DNA of 64,000 bases from Deltaproteobacteria bacterium (GTDB lineage: Bacteria; Desulfobacterota; Desulfobacteria; Desulfobacterales; JAHEIW01): positions 1 through 64,000 of the forward strand of contig JAHEIW010000009.1 in the NCBI GenBank assembly GCA_024639185.1, written 5' to 3'. Both the position numbers and the translations under genes were made by a program. Of this stretch, positions 19,458-31,322 are shown one piece after another (within the stretch, counting starts at the first letter, position 1; each line of letters begins with the position of its first letter). Below the pieces are notes generated by a model. The model made no database searches, was not told the origin of the DNA, and saw nothing but the letters and a program-made list of their open reading frames with translations.

Positions 19458-19620
19458 AGGTTCACTGCTGTCGCTTTGATCCGTGGATTAGGGACGAGCT
19501 CAGGTATTCCAGATAATGCATTCATCGAAACGGATGTTTTTTTGCCGGTACAACTGCAATATATTGAAAATATGAGTTAAAATTCTTAGTGAATCGCAGG
19601 TAGCGGCTGACGAAATTTTT

Positions 19621-19649
19621 TATATAGATTAGAGTCCGTCAAATTGCAA
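19621..19649 (-). promoter_or_regulatory. Candidate sigma-70 promoter for the nuo operon
   Basis: On the minus strand, TTGCAA (19649-19644) and TATATA (19626-19621) are separated by exactly 17 bases, about 160 bases upstream of the nuoA ATG and just past the end of gmhB. It is the best -35/-10 pair seen in this gap. Without transcription data it is only a candidate. Confidence 0.35.
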
Positions 19650-19718
19650 GGTAAATTACCGTTCAGATCGGTACGGTTCACGAATTTCCAATGCAAGAGC
19701 CAAATGTCGCTTCATGGG

Positions 19719-27300: not shown

Positions 27301-28389
27301 TCATGTCAAAAAAGAAGAAGTATAAACTTTATAGGATCCGACAAACGGCGACAGCTCGGAGGCCGCCCAGAATTGATGACTGAACAGCACGCTTGCAGGC
27401 GTTAGATTATAGATCGCATCTGCGGCTATTAATGTCACCGCATTGGTCCAGGTGATTTTATCCTCCGGCCAGGTGACCAGATCTGGGCAGGTAAAACCGC
27501 ACCAGTAAGATCCGTCCTCGTAACGCCGATCGCTGATCCAGTTAAAGACAATTCTGGCCAGTTCCAGGTTGCCCATGCCGGCTAAAGCCAGCGTCAGCTC
27601 AGCGGTTTCGGCAATGGTTACCCAGGGCTTATCTGATACGCAACGAACGCCACGGTCTTCTACAATAAATTTTTTCCAGTACCTGTCGATCCGCTCTTGC
27701 GCGTCCGTGCCGGTGATGATACCCGCCAGAATCGGATAAAACCAATCCATCGAAAAACGCGATTTGGTCATATTGAACAGATAAGGTTTGTTTTTAACGG
27801 CGTCTGCCAGCTTGATACAGGCGCGTTCCCATGATGGCATTGAAAGGCCCAGTATTTTTGCAAGCGCCAGGGCGCATTTGATGCTCATGTAAATGGAGCT
27901 GGACCCCGTTAAAAGGGCCATAGGATCGATGTTGCCTTTGGGGCTTATGGCCCAGTAAATCTCTCCATTGGGGGTTTGCAGGCTCACGGCAAATTGGATG
28001 GCCCTAAAAATCGTGGGCCACAGTTGCTCGAGCAGGGCATGGTCTTTGGTTATCAGAAAATGGTGAAACAGGCCCACCGCTATATAGGAAGACAAATTGG
28101 CGTCTCTGGTTTTATCTTCAGGGACCCCGTTACGATAGGCCGTGTACCAGCTGCCGTCTTCCAGTTGCCGCTCGGCCAGCCACCGAAACGCTCGCCGCGC
28201 CTCCTCATGATACCCACCCACGCTCAGCCCCATGGCGGATTCGATGTGATCCCAGGGGTCTGATTTTTGACCCACTGCCCACGGTATCTCACCATCGGAT
28301 CGCTGGGTCCGGGCAATAAATGACGCCACCTCACCGATATCGAACCTATTTGGCTGCAGTCGCTCGCTGCTGGATAATTTAACGTCCAC
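27301..28389 (-). CDS. Alpha/alpha-barrel protein with QW-like repeats (prenyltransferase/squalene-cyclase-like fold)
   Basis: This 362-residue soluble protein contains repeated helices punctuated by QW-like motifs: RTQRSDGEIPW (about 29), ERQLEDGSWYTAY (about 72), SLQTPNGEIYWAI (about 137) and DRRYEDGSYWCGF (about 297). WDHIESAMGL occurs near 46. These are features of the (alpha/alpha)6 toroids shared by terpene cyclases, protein prenyltransferases and several glycoside hydrolases. The DXDD cyclase motif is absent, so a cyclase is unlikely; a glycan- or lipid-processing enzyme is possible. The start is a GTG with AAGGGG about 12 bases upstream. Databases often label such proteins as prenyltransferase; the true activity is unknown. 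Confidence 0.65.
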   Translation of the reverse strand: MDVKLSSSERLQPNRFDIGEVASFIARTQRSDGEIPWAVGQKSDPWDHIESAMGLSVGGYHEEARRAFRWLAERQLEDGSWYTAYRNGVPEDKTRDANLSSYIAVGLFHHFLITKDHALLEQLWPTIFRAIQFAVSLQTPNGEIYWAISPKGNIDPMALLTGSSSIYMSIKCALALAKILGLSMPSWERACIKLADAVKNKPYLFNMTKSRFSMDWFYPILAGIITGTDAQERIDRYWKKFIVEDRGVRCVSDKPWVTIAETAELTLALAGMGNLELARIVFNWISDRRYEDGSYWCGFTCPDLVTWPEDKITWTNAVTLIAADAIYNLTPASVLFSHQFWAASELSPFVGSYKVYTSSFLT

Positions 28390-28407
28390 TAAAGGCCATA
28401 TCCCCTT

Positions 28408-28510
28408 TTATAGTCGTTGTCAAAAAAACGTTCCGATTGCGTAACGTTTTTTTGCCACAACACTTATGCCGCCATCCTTTTCTGCAAGCATTAGAATGAC
28501 AAGCGGTGAT
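28408..28510. repeat. TIR-bounded small element, copy 1 (upstream of ECF operon)
   Basis: It begins TTATAGTCGTTGTC and ends GACAAGCGGTGAT, imperfect terminal inverted repeats. It contains a terminator-like stem ACGTTCCGATTGCGTAACGT flanked by an A-tract and a T-tract. It is about 85 percent identical by eye to copy 2 at 30478 in the same orientation, 2.07 kb away. There is no open frame. Confidence 0.75.
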
Positions 28511-28772: not shown

Positions 28773-29396
28773 ATGAATCCATCAAGACATAGTGCGTCCG
28801 GCTCTCAAAGCGCTGACCTGCAGCTGACAGAACTGGTAGAAAATGCCAGAGACGGCAACCGCCTGGCATTTGATCAACTGATTGATCGCTATCAGGGAGA
28901 CATATATCGCATGATATACTACCGCATACACAGTCAAATGGATGCTGAAGATCTGACCCAGGACGTATTTGTTCGTGCTTTCCGCAGCATTTCCCGGCTG
29001 CGGGAGCCAAAGCGATTTCGCAGCTGGCTGTATACGATTGCCGTAAACAGAGTAAATGACTACCTTCGCAAAAAACGAGTCCGATCCATTTTTAAATCAT
29101 CCGATGAAGGCCCCGAGATTCAGCCGGAAGCAGATGATCAACGCGATAATCCCGAAGCACTGGAGCAGGTTTTAAAGGAAGATTTCTGGCGGCAGGTGAG
29201 TCGCATCGCCAAAAAACTATCGAAAATGGAACGCGAAGTATTTATGCTGCGATTTATGGACGATTTAAATATCGCTGATATTGCCCAAATATTGAAGAAG
29301 AGCGAAAGCACCGTAAAAACCCACCTGTATCGGGCTTTGGCAAAATTTAAAAAGGAAAAAGGATTACGACAATTTCTTCAGGAGGACTTAGCGTGA
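28773..29396 (+). CDS. ECF-family RNA polymerase sigma factor (RpoE-like)
   Basis: This 207-residue group IV sigma factor has region 2 at about 28-95, with RYQGDIYRMIYYRI, the DAEDLTQDVFVRAFRSI core-binding helix and FRSWLYTIAVNRVNDYLRKKR. Region 4 spans about 145-200, with LSKMEREVFMLRFMDDLNIADIAQIL and the helix-turn-helix KSESTVKTHLYRALAKFKK. An acidic linker (about 105-125) joins them. It recruits polymerase to envelope- or stress-response promoters. The next gene overlaps by four bases (GTGA) and encodes a ZAS-type anti-sigma factor, followed by a Spy-like periplasmic protein. The unit therefore resembles RpoE/RseA-type or CpxP-like envelope-stress sensing. Confidence 0.92.
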   Translation: MNPSRHSASGSQSADLQLTELVENARDGNRLAFDQLIDRYQGDIYRMIYYRIHSQMDAEDLTQDVFVRAFRSISRLREPKRFRSWLYTIAVNRVNDYLRKKRVRSIFKSSDEGPEIQPEADDQRDNPEALEQVLKEDFWRQVSRIAKKLSKMEREVFMLRFMDDLNIADIAQILKKSESTVKTHLYRALAKFKKEKGLRQFLQEDLA

Positions 29397-29941
29397 GCAA
29401 TCACAACGCCATGACTTCGCATCTGGGCGAAAACGACATTTTACAGGCAGTCATTGATGAAACCGATCTGTCTCAGCGCTTGAAGCAGCATTTGAGCGAA
29501 TGTTCGCATTGCCGTCTACAAAAGGAGCGTTTCGCGCAGGAGCTAACGCGTTTGGGGCAACTGGCCAGGCGCTATGCACCCGGTCCGCAACGGCGGGTGA
29601 CCCTCGTTGAAAAGAGGGTTCGATCGCCTATTTTTAACTGGAAATACGCCGTTAGCGCTGCAGCCGTTGCCGCCGCCATTATCGTCGTATGGGCAACTGT
29701 CTTAATTCAAAGTCAGCAGCCCGGTCGTGTTGGTAATTTGACCCAAAATATGGTAGAAGCAGAAAGACTGATGACGGAGATAGATGGGCTGGTTGAAAAT
29801 GCGTTGCCGCCGGTCTACCTGGAAATTGTGGGTGAAACCGAATTGAACCCGGATGAAGAATTTTTAGAATTCCTCATTCCGGCCGCTGATGAATCCCCCC
29901 GAATCTCTGCAATAACAAGGAAAGGACCCGCAAGATGTTAA
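29393..29941 (+). CDS. Zinc-binding (ZAS-type) anti-sigma factor, membrane-anchored
   Basis: This 182-residue protein starts at a GTG overlapping the sigma-factor stop. It contains H33-x3-C37-x2-C40 in KQHLSECSHCRLQ, the zinc anti-sigma motif, in a short helical cytoplasmic domain. One membrane helix (YAVSAAAVAAAIIVVWATVLI) follows at about 85-105, then a periplasmic tail of about 75 acidic residues. Such proteins hold the partner sigma at the membrane until an envelope signal or redox change releases it. Translational coupling to the sigma gene and overlap with the next gene support co-regulation. Confidence 0.85.
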   Translation: MSNHNAMTSHLGENDILQAVIDETDLSQRLKQHLSECSHCRLQKERFAQELTRLGQLARRYAPGPQRRVTLVEKRVRSPIFNWKYAVSAAAVAAAIIVVWATVLIQSQQPGRVGNLTQNMVEAERLMTEIDGLVENALPPVYLEIVGETELNPDEEFLEFLIPAADESPRISAITRKGPARC

Positions 29942-30342
29942 AAAAGGTCTTGATTGCTGCTCTGCTGATCCTACTCATGGGCCTGCCCGGGGCTGTCAGC
30001 GCGCAGGAAGTGCCTTCCGGTAAGTGGTGGTACAATAAGAAAGTCGTTCAGAACCTCAATCTGACCCAAAAAGAGGTCGGGCAGCTGGATCGGCTCTATG
30101 AAGACAGCCATCGCAGACTCATTGATTTAAAAAGTGCGGTAAAACGGGAACAGTTCGAGCTCGATACACTCCTGGGCAAAGAGCCTGTTGATGACACCAA
30201 GGTCCGCAAACAATTCAAGCGACTTGAAAAAGCCCGCACCGATCTGGCCGACGAGCGCCTGGGATTTGTTATCCGCGTCAGAGAAATCATTGGCGCCGAT
30301 CGGTTTCAGCAACTGAAGACGTCTTACAAGGATTGGCGATAG
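29935..30342 (+). CDS. Spy/CpxP-like periplasmic stress protein
   Basis: This 135-residue protein has a clean signal peptide (LIAALLILLMGLPGAVSAQE). A mature helical domain follows with an LTQ-type motif (NLNLTQKEVGQLDRLYEDSHRRL, about 46-68) and a second amphipathic hairpin (KVRKQFKRLEKARTDLADERLGFVIRVREII). That is the pattern of the Spy/CpxP/CnrX (LTXXQ) family of periplasmic chaperones and metal or stress sensors. It overlaps the anti-sigma gene by seven bases. By analogy with CnrX or CpxP it may feed envelope state back to the anti-sigma factor (inference). No metal-binding His/Met cluster is evident. Confidence 0.8.
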   Translation: MLKKVLIAALLILLMGLPGAVSAQEVPSGKWWYNKKVVQNLNLTQKEVGQLDRLYEDSHRRLIDLKSAVKREQFELDTLLGKEPVDDTKVRKQFKRLEKARTDLADERLGFVIRVREIIGADRFQQLKTSYKDWR

Positions 30343-30477
30343 GACAACCTTGCCGGCAAGCAATTTGAATCCCTGATTTGCAGCAGATCAGCGCTTCATA
30401 ACCGCCTATTTTTCCCGCTTGACTTTAGTCCACGCATTGTTTAGGTTACTTTTCATACAGACACTACCATCAGACCT

Positions 30478-30589
30478 TTATAGTGGTTGTCAAAAAAACG
30501 TTCCGATTGCGGAACGCTTTTTTACTACAACACTTATACCGCCATCCTTTTTTGCGTTGTTCCGAACATTAAATTGACAAGCGGTATAA
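30478..30589. repeat. TIR-bounded small element, copy 2 (downstream of ECF operon)
   Basis: It begins TTATAGTGGTTGTCAA and ends TTGACAAGCGGTATAA; the ends are inverted repeats matching at 13 of 16 positions. It carries a bidirectional terminator-like stem, CGTTCCGATTGCGGAACG, between an A-tract and a T-tract (about 30496-30524). It matches copy 1 at 28408 in the same orientation. It could serve as terminator of the ECF operon. Confidence 0.78.
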
Positions 30590-30720
30590 TTGTAATCGGT
30601 TTTAGCAACCGAGGACCCGATTTGTTTGATGCGGGTCCGCCCATTGCACAGCGTGCTTTCCTTCTTTAACCGCCAGCCTTTCATTCAGGTTTGCCGGATC
30701 CCATTAACCCAGTACCAGGT

Positions 30721-30809
30721 AAAAAAGGAGGCGCTTATGATAAAGGTTTATATCAAATTCCGAGTTTAAAGCCTCCAACGGCGTTGACCGTTCGTCCGGA
30801 GGCTTTATT
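30721..30809 (+). promoter_or_regulatory. Attenuator-like leader: 10-codon ORF with alternative GGAGGC pairings
   Basis: A strong ribosome site (AAAAAAGGAGGC, 30721-30732) precedes an ATG at 30737 that opens a 10-codon frame (MIKVYIKFRV) ending in TAA at 30767-30769. Immediately after, TAAAGCCTCC (30767-30776) can pair with GGAGGCTTTA (30798-30807) across a small inner stem (AACGG/CCGTT). The same GCCTCC can instead pair with the GGAGGC of the ribosome site. The two folds exclude each other, like a translational or transcriptional attenuator. The next gene is dodecin. Confidence 0.5.
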
Positions 30810-30843
30810 ATGCCCACAAAACGGAAAGGGCTAAAATATCGGC

Positions 30844-30883
30844 GCGCCAAACGGCTGTCGGGGTGAAACCGGCCGATTGGCGC
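30844..30883 (+). other. Second hairpin in the dodecin leader
   Basis: GCGCCAA (30844-30850) pairs with TTGGCGC (30877-30883), and inner GGC pairs with GCC. It is flanked by two copies of GCTAAAAT (30830-30837 and 30882-30889). It lies 50 bases before the dodecin ATG. The function is unknown. Confidence 0.4.
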
Positions 30884-30933
30884 TAAAATGGATCCATCGA
30901 CATTGCGCTCAAAGTTGCAGAAAGGAGGAAAAA

Positions 30934-31149
30934 ATGCCTGACAGCGTGTACAAAGTCATCAGACTGGTAGGAACGAGTCCGTCTTCCTGGGAAGAGGCCG
31001 CCAAAAACGCAGTTGAAACTGCCGGCAAATCCCTAAGAGATCTGAGGGTCGCGGAAATTGACAAATTGGATATGAAAGTTGAAAACGGTAATGTTACCGC
31101 TTTCCGCGCCCTTGTAAACCTGTCTTTTAAATACGGCGGTGAAGGGTAA
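30934..31149 (+). CDS. Dodecin family flavin-binding protein
   Basis: This 71-residue protein starts at the ATG at 30934, directly after AGGAGGAAAAA. A longer frame from 30877 is rejected because it includes this ribosome site. The sequence has the dodecin layout: VYKVIRLVGTSPSSWEEAAKNAVETAGKSL, then RDLRVAEIDKLDMKVENGNVTAFRALVNLSFKY. The Trp in SSWEEA is the residue that stacks on flavin in dodecins. Dodecins assemble as hollow dodecamers that bind riboflavin, FMN or CoA and may buffer flavin. The gene stands alone, with a structured leader upstream and a strong terminator downstream. Confidence 0.92.
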   Translation: MPDSVYKVIRLVGTSPSSWEEAAKNAVETAGKSLRDLRVAEIDKLDMKVENGNVTAFRALVNLSFKYGGEG

Positions 31150-31205
31150 GCGGACTGTTGTAGGTTTGTAAATCATTACACTTAACATTAATTATTGCTA
31201 AAGAA

Positions 31206-31250
31206 TAAACCTCCGAAATGAACGATAACCGCTTCTTTTGGAGGTTTATT
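31206..31250 (+). terminator. Rho-independent terminator of the dodecin gene
   Basis: TAAACCTCC (31206-31214) pairs with GGAGGTTTA (31240-31248), then TT, about 60 bases after the dodecin stop. The stem resembles that of the leader hairpin at 30767-30807. Confidence 0.7.
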
Positions 31251-31322
31251 GCTTTCAACATCCTTCGTCTAATCCAATAGACACGGTTAGCGATCAGCAG
31301 CTTGGCGCTTATCAAGTGCCAT

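Follow-up and report, generated by a model that had tools for sequence, protein, structure and literature searches.

A leader element joining a 10-codon ORF to a terminator-like hairpin upstream of dodecin: a probable ribosome-dependent attenuator from a dispersed family

The dodecin gene in the 64,000-nt stretch of Desulfobacterales DNA analyzed here (the window) is preceded by a leader element that we interpret, with a probability of about two in three, as a ribosome-dependent transcription attenuator and as one copy of a dispersed family. Comparison between genomes supports a conserved anatomy, coding selection on the short ORF, covariation of the inner stem and a regular position before genes; termination at the hairpin, its blocking by a ribosome and the use of ribosome dwell time as the signal would be the probable mode of action. 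An earlier sequence-only reading of the same DNA had proposed a flavin- or translation-sensing attenuator. Its translation-dependent form is the best reading.

Within the window, five bases separate the GGAGG ribosome-binding site from the ATG of the leader ORF, and the stop codon overlaps the terminator-like hairpin (Table 1). The ORF with its ribosome site and the GCCTCC/GGAGGC hairpin just after its stop had both been picked out from the sequence alone and are present as described. The hairpin was predicted to fold with −19.4 kcal/mol (−23.4 in the relative G002 and −21.3 in the relative G001), and the window hairpin region folded alone displayed only mild excess stability over shuffled sequences (z −1.7). 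The T-run that follows is broken in the window copy and unbroken, as TTTTTT, in G001 and G002. The downstream gene was identified as dodecin by Pfam (82.2 bits, cut-off 22.5) over most of the protein, and the terminator-like stem behind it (11 bp, 31204–31214 with 31240–31250) is similar in design to the leader hairpin, in line with the repeated GGAGG stem reported earlier. A basic second ORF begins directly after the leader hairpin, whose 3′ arm offers GGAGG as a possible Shine–Dalgarno (SD) sequence; its functionality is doubtful.

Table 1 Features of the dodecin leader region, in window coordinates
Feature	Position	Strand	Basis
Promoter-like block TTGACTTT-n-CATTGTTTAG	30419..30444	+	upstream of dodecin, families f1 and f8
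MITE-like repeat, ~110 bp	30479..30588	.	repeat copies in genome; terminal inverted repeats
Upstream helix GGACCCG (30613-30619) / CGGGTCC (30632-30638)	30613..30638	+	compensatory changes
Leader element overall	30716..30814	+	span of covariance models R2/R3
Leader-ORF ribosome-binding site GGAGG	30727..30731	+	sequence; family consensus GGAG at -10..-7
Leader ORF MIKVYIKFRV (stop)	30737..30769	+	kept in three species; coding selection family-wide
Terminator-like hairpin AAAGCCTCC (30768-30776) / GGAGGCTTT (30798-30806)	30768..30806	+	folding energy
T-rich stretch TTTATTAT 3′ of hairpin	30804..30811	+	sequence; TTTTTT in G001 and G002
Second short ORF MPTKRKGLKYRRAKRLSG (stop)	30810..30866	+	start kept in three genus species, peptide diverged
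Dodecin gene	30934..31149	+	PF07311, E 3.3e-23, residues 5-67 of 71
Dodecin terminator-like hairpin AATAAACCTCC/GGAGGTTTATT	31204..31250	+	sequence

The window genome is incomplete and its close relatives are Desulfobacterales MAGs. Three further species of the genus were examined; dodecin was detectable in two, and in both the element stands before it. The leader peptides of the three species read MIKVYIKFRV, MIRDYTKLRV and MKRAYTKLRV; all 10 codons, the SD sequence, the start and the stop are kept, with the TAA of the relatives at the same position. Invariant positions across these species amount to 100% in the hairpin arms, 76% in the ORF and 36–48% in the diverged flanks, and two further blocks are well kept (88% in the 48 nt 5′ of the dodecin start, 76% in the 29 nt 3′ of the hairpin). 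A pattern scan for the ORF with a following CCTCC returned one match per genome in the three species, solely before dodecin. A check of ORF and stem conservation in relatives, suggested by the sequence-only reading, leaves an attenuator unrefuted. Diverged copies with the same spacing precede dodecin in G005 (without a stop at codon 11) and in G012 (MQAGHMKAPV followed by a stop, without an SD sequence), and another stands before dodecin in G021 (family f17); in several other relatives dodecin is present with no such element before it. Further upstream, the helix at 30613–30638 has the compensatory variants GGATTCG/CGGATCC and GGGTTCG/CGAACCC, among three sequences only. Upstream of dodecin in families f1 and f8 (for example, L005, L133, L137 and L139), a small hairpin of the type TTGCG..CGCAA lies directly 5′ of AAGAAAGGAGG and looks conserved by eye, the L133 version being TTGTGC..GCACAA; RNAalifold on a MAFFT alignment did not confirm it.

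Covariance searches placed the dodecin leader in a wider family. A first model, R1, was built from five dodecin copies, R2 from 17 sequences and R3 from 95. R1 recovered more loci in the order, nearly all of them combining a short ORF of matching layout with a GCCTCC/GGAGGC terminator and lying before other genes; one R1 match (L155) was rejected as false because it sits within a long reading frame. In the order, R2 matched at least ~106 places, spread over 55 of the 380 genomes. R3, applied to 395 phylum genomes, had matches in 40 of them, with E reaching 2e-14; most of these lie outside the order and hence were absent from its training set. The two largest scans scored up to 10 candidates per genome, and an earlier one up to 22. 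Several phylum genomes carry at least 10 copies and 355 carry none, compared to 258 expected for random placement; counts this uneven are unlike background matches. The window element itself scored 79.4 bits with R2, whose training sequences include it, and 56.3 bits with R3 (E 4.5e-8). Its E of 6e-21 with the seed model is not independent, because that model was partly built from the window element, and all E-values from covariance searches are rough. A more sensitive search gave two copies in the window's genome (one weak), 10 in G005, nine in G058 and seven in G168. Copies within one genome are diverged, not near identical. The family was grown iteratively and its consensus columns are therefore partly self-reinforcing.

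The family layout consists of an SD sequence and ATG, a peptide of the form M[KR][KR][GS][FY]QK[VM]P[IM], often a stop, a GCCTCC...GGAGGC hairpin at a fixed distance and a T-run, with the consensus AACCTTCTGGAG-AAAT-ATG-A[AG]A-AGG-[AG]GT-TTC-CAG-AAG-GTG-CCG-ATA-(stop or read-through)-AGCCTCCAAGGG-loop-CCCTTTGGAGGCTTTTT. Among 79 order copies, 59 have 34–35 nt between ATG and hairpin arm, and a subclass with an 11-codon peptide is longer by exactly one codon. Median hairpin energy across the family is −21.5 kcal/mol (z −4.9), and the inner stem covaries beyond the modeled pairs (z 7.5, n 65). Some copies occur in tandem or close clusters (L290, L292, L322, L327 and L333), for example as pairs separated by about 225 nt in G549:C882 and in G572:C257 and as three within 4 kb in G498:C18; clustered copies include the 11-codon subclass MRRWGYQKM. 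Near another copy, in G116, a group II intron D1-D4-3 was detected (RF02001, 54.8 bits, L161:68-243).

Evidence that the leader ORF is under protein-level selection comes from sequence comparison of 70 dereplicated copies. Codon counts left out eight R2 matches without a start codon at the expected place. Frame-0 amino-acid similarity exceeded column permutations with z 6.2 (3.1 and 2.3 in the other frames), a type of test that selection on additive column scores should not mimic. Only one stop falls in frame within codons 2–9; the other frames have 28 and 15. K7 is present in 62 of the 70 copies (as AAG or AAA) and P9 in 50, with all four codons used. A stop follows at codon 11 in 24 of 70; the remaining ORFs, about two thirds, run into the hairpin with unrelated tails. 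For Ile at codon 10, 29 of 32 copies use AUA, compared to 22% in downstream genes; for Arg at codon 2, 22 of 27 use AGA, compared to 17%. These biases may partly be products of model selection. The window copy lacks P9 and AUA10 of the family consensus: in its genus the peptide ends in K[FL]RV rather than KVPI (P9 to R, I10 to V), and the local copy may therefore be retuned. A model-free scan for bare hairpins found an ATG at the expected offset in two of 32 cases against 1.35 expected, which is no clear enrichment; the bare hairpin thus does not predict the ORF, and the scan was not used as evidence. Pairing between the upstream region and codons 2–5 reached z 3.5 to 5.6 in the order set and z −2.4 in the phylum set, and a helix around the ORF ribosome site (AACCCTT:AAGGGTT) is not claimed, being significant in the order set only.

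This anatomy suggests how the element may work. The short ORF carries a ribosome site of its own and either stops shortly ahead of the 5′ arm of what is predicted to be an intrinsic terminator or continues into that arm. The front edge of a ribosome lies about 12–15 nt beyond the P-site codon. A ribosome at codons 10–11 would overlie the 5′ arm and, following closely behind RNA polymerase, would cover GCCTCC as it translates or pauses and keep the terminator open, so that transcription would run on into the gene; if the ORF were not translated in time, the hairpin would form and transcription would end. Given direct occlusion by the ribosome, a competing antiterminator structure would not be required. 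The peptide end, K7-x-P9-I10, often with AUA and then a stop, would most likely set the ribosome dwell time. In E. coli, coupled ribosomes have been described as suppressing intrinsic terminators (PMC5021804). Points against this reading are the iterative growth of the family, the bare-hairpin scan, the missing codon-11 stop in about two thirds of copies, the departures of the window copy from the consensus and its broken T-run, the MITE-like repeat that lies between promoter-like block and leader in the window, and the relatives in which the element before dodecin is incomplete (G005 and G012) or missing.

The genes that follow are varied. An SD-preceded ORF on the same strand begins within 500 nt downstream in 130 of 161 copies, at a median distance of 122 nt, and a divergent SD-preceded ORF lies on the other side in 25 of 161. 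Downstream genes were called automatically, and 118 sampled downstream proteins match 111 Pfam families. Adenylate/guanylate cyclases lead with 11 of the 118, ahead of ParA-like ATPases with a glycogen-binding domain (5) and dodecin (5), with DctP (3), periplasmic binding proteins (3) and Usp (2) as further groups. These class III cyclases, the largest single group (for example, L204, L209, L220, L229 and L231), give a hint of a signaling regulon. That the family works as phylum-wide attenuation, in which a shared leader peptide before nucleotide cyclases, dodecin, stress proteins and secreted proteins reports a translational state and, through ribosome occupancy at one terminator design, switches a dispersed regulon, is a tentative extension to which we give somewhat less than an even chance. 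Such a state could be, for instance, an arrest at K-x-P-I or a slowed decoding of AUA/AGA codons; as signs of an arrest peptide, the conservation of K7, P9 and codon 10 is no more than suggestive. No run of a single codon was found in the peptide and the downstream genes are diverse, findings that exclude only the amino-acid-specific subclass of ribosome-mediated attenuators, in which regulatory codons match the operon product.

The same layout could be that of an independent small transcription unit, producing a 10-aa peptide or a small RNA, with dodecin and the other genes promoted after the hairpin. Such a unit would account for the full small-gene arrangement of SD sequence, ORF, stop and terminator, the median distance leaves room for a promoter, and a promoter-like TTGACC-16-TATTAT is found in the window at 30784–30811. 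However, this match overlaps the hairpin and its −10 part is not kept in G001 and G002, the read-through ORFs with their unrelated tails are unlike a functional free peptide, and in 15 of 130 copies the downstream gene begins less than 40 nt past the element, so that there is no room for a separate promoter. We regard an independent unit as unlikely. Somewhat less likely again is that the copies are mobile attenuators or repeats, namely terminators that mobile elements distributed and left before unrelated genes, with no regulatory role in common. Unrelated downstream genes and multiple copies per genome would be expected of them, and precedent exists in Enterobacteria and bacilli (PMC2965389), but the divergence of copies within a genome, the coding constraint on the ORF and the retention of the element before orthologous genes (dodecin, ParA-like ATPases and cyclases) argue against it; no transposase-like pattern was apparent on casual inspection.

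Translational coupling, in which translation of the first ORF would open the hairpin, free its GGAGG for the ORF at 30810 and so affect dodecin translation, is very unlikely: all three genus members do have the start codon directly after the hairpin with the arm GGAGG as an SD sequence, but the second peptide diverges, G005 and G012 have no start there, and the family consensus 3′ of the hairpin is a T-run. Dodecins bind flavins, and the sequence-only reading had accordingly raised a flavin signal, with GCCTCC pairing alternatively with the GGAGGC ribosome site of the ORF itself. That pairing is possible in the window, but relatives carry GGAGGA and GGAGGG, and complementarity between the SD sequence and the 5′ arm across the family did not exceed the level of shuffled partners and mostly fell short of it (z −1.1 to −2.1). 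In agreement with that reading's failure to recognize any riboswitch consensus, including the FMN type, the FMN riboswitch of Rfam did not reach its gathering score anywhere in the window and was absent from the weak hits in 30400–31300. A flavin- or FMN-responsive dodecin riboswitch working through this exchange is highly improbable: the five dodecins among the sampled downstream genes speak for it, but the diversity of those genes, most of them without a flavin link, disfavors a flavin signal. The second hairpin at 30844–30883, placed by the same reading before the dodecin start, is present, but the 98 nt that include it are no more stable than shuffles (z −0.3) and its segment is 36% invariant. 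A dodecin-specific riboswitch at 30844–30933 was likewise rejected, as RNAalifold on 12 dodecin leaders gave no consensus structure for their 3′ part.

Leader-peptide attenuators usually serve a single pathway. The ribosome-dependent attenuator favored here would share with the trp/his/thr/phe-type systems and bmrB-bmrCD of B. subtilis a short translated ORF adjoining or overlapping an intrinsic terminator in the 5′ leader; in the characterized bmrB case the terminator is reported to lie inside the leader ORF, with an outcome affected by rare codons (PMC4191407). It differs in that one peptide consensus, here known from sequence, precedes many unrelated genes, with no single-codon run and no alternative antiterminator hairpin found in the element. 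A sub-threshold Rfam Phe_leader match at L163 (34.1 bits, gathering score 55) was taken as chance. With the arrest peptides TnaC, ErmCL and SpeFL the element shares conserved residues near the peptide end and a ribosome position that would decide RNA structure or termination; unlike them, the peptide has only 10 residues, is not homologous as far as known and precedes diverse genes, and its arrest is putative. The FMN riboswitch, too, occupies the 5′ leader of flavin-linked genes, but neither a covariance-model match nor an FMN structure is present here. The nearest described concept is that of attenuator regulons and mobile attenuators (Naville and Gautheret 2010, PMC2965389), in which one terminator family likewise precedes non-homologous genes; here, in contrast, a conserved coding sequence belongs to the element. 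That work covers Enterobacteria and bacilli and makes no mention of this phylum, dodecin or Geobacter. No family in Rfam 15 matches the element and no description of it was found in open-access papers; the family is apparently undescribed. One peptide-plus-terminator element across many gene families would constitute a regulon run by ribosome behavior instead of by a protein or a metabolite-binding RNA, and would offer a route into signaling (class III cyclases and universal stress proteins) in little-studied bacteria of the phylum. At about 100 nt, it is simple enough for testing in one reporter plasmid. The family also indicates many 10-codon genes that are probably missed by standard annotation.

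The dodecin surroundings in the window have features of their own. The promoter-like block recurs upstream of dodecin in 12 genomes from two families, and its −10 part is a poor sigma-70 match. Between this block and the leader stands the MITE-like repeat, which has imperfect terminal inverted repeats (TATAGTGGTTGTCAA/TTGACAAGCGGTATA, from an alignment of nine copies), at least 40 genome matches to query bases 38–150 and a terminator-like hairpin at 30499–30516. It is missing at the corresponding site in G001 and G002, and local dodecin expression may therefore differ. A second window location of the repeat is 28407–28507. Genes for an ECF sigma factor, a probable anti-sigma factor and a heavy-metal-resistance (Metal_resist) periplasmic protein occupy 28773–30342, between dodecin and a gene at 27301–28389 whose transcription runs away from dodecin; in family f8, the dodecin-adjacent sequence resembles, by eye, the start of a homologue of the 27301–28389 gene. 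Elsewhere in the window, ARAGORN called a 94-base tRNA-Ile with anticodon TAT at 19589–19682, an uncommon find in bacteria that could be a misprediction.
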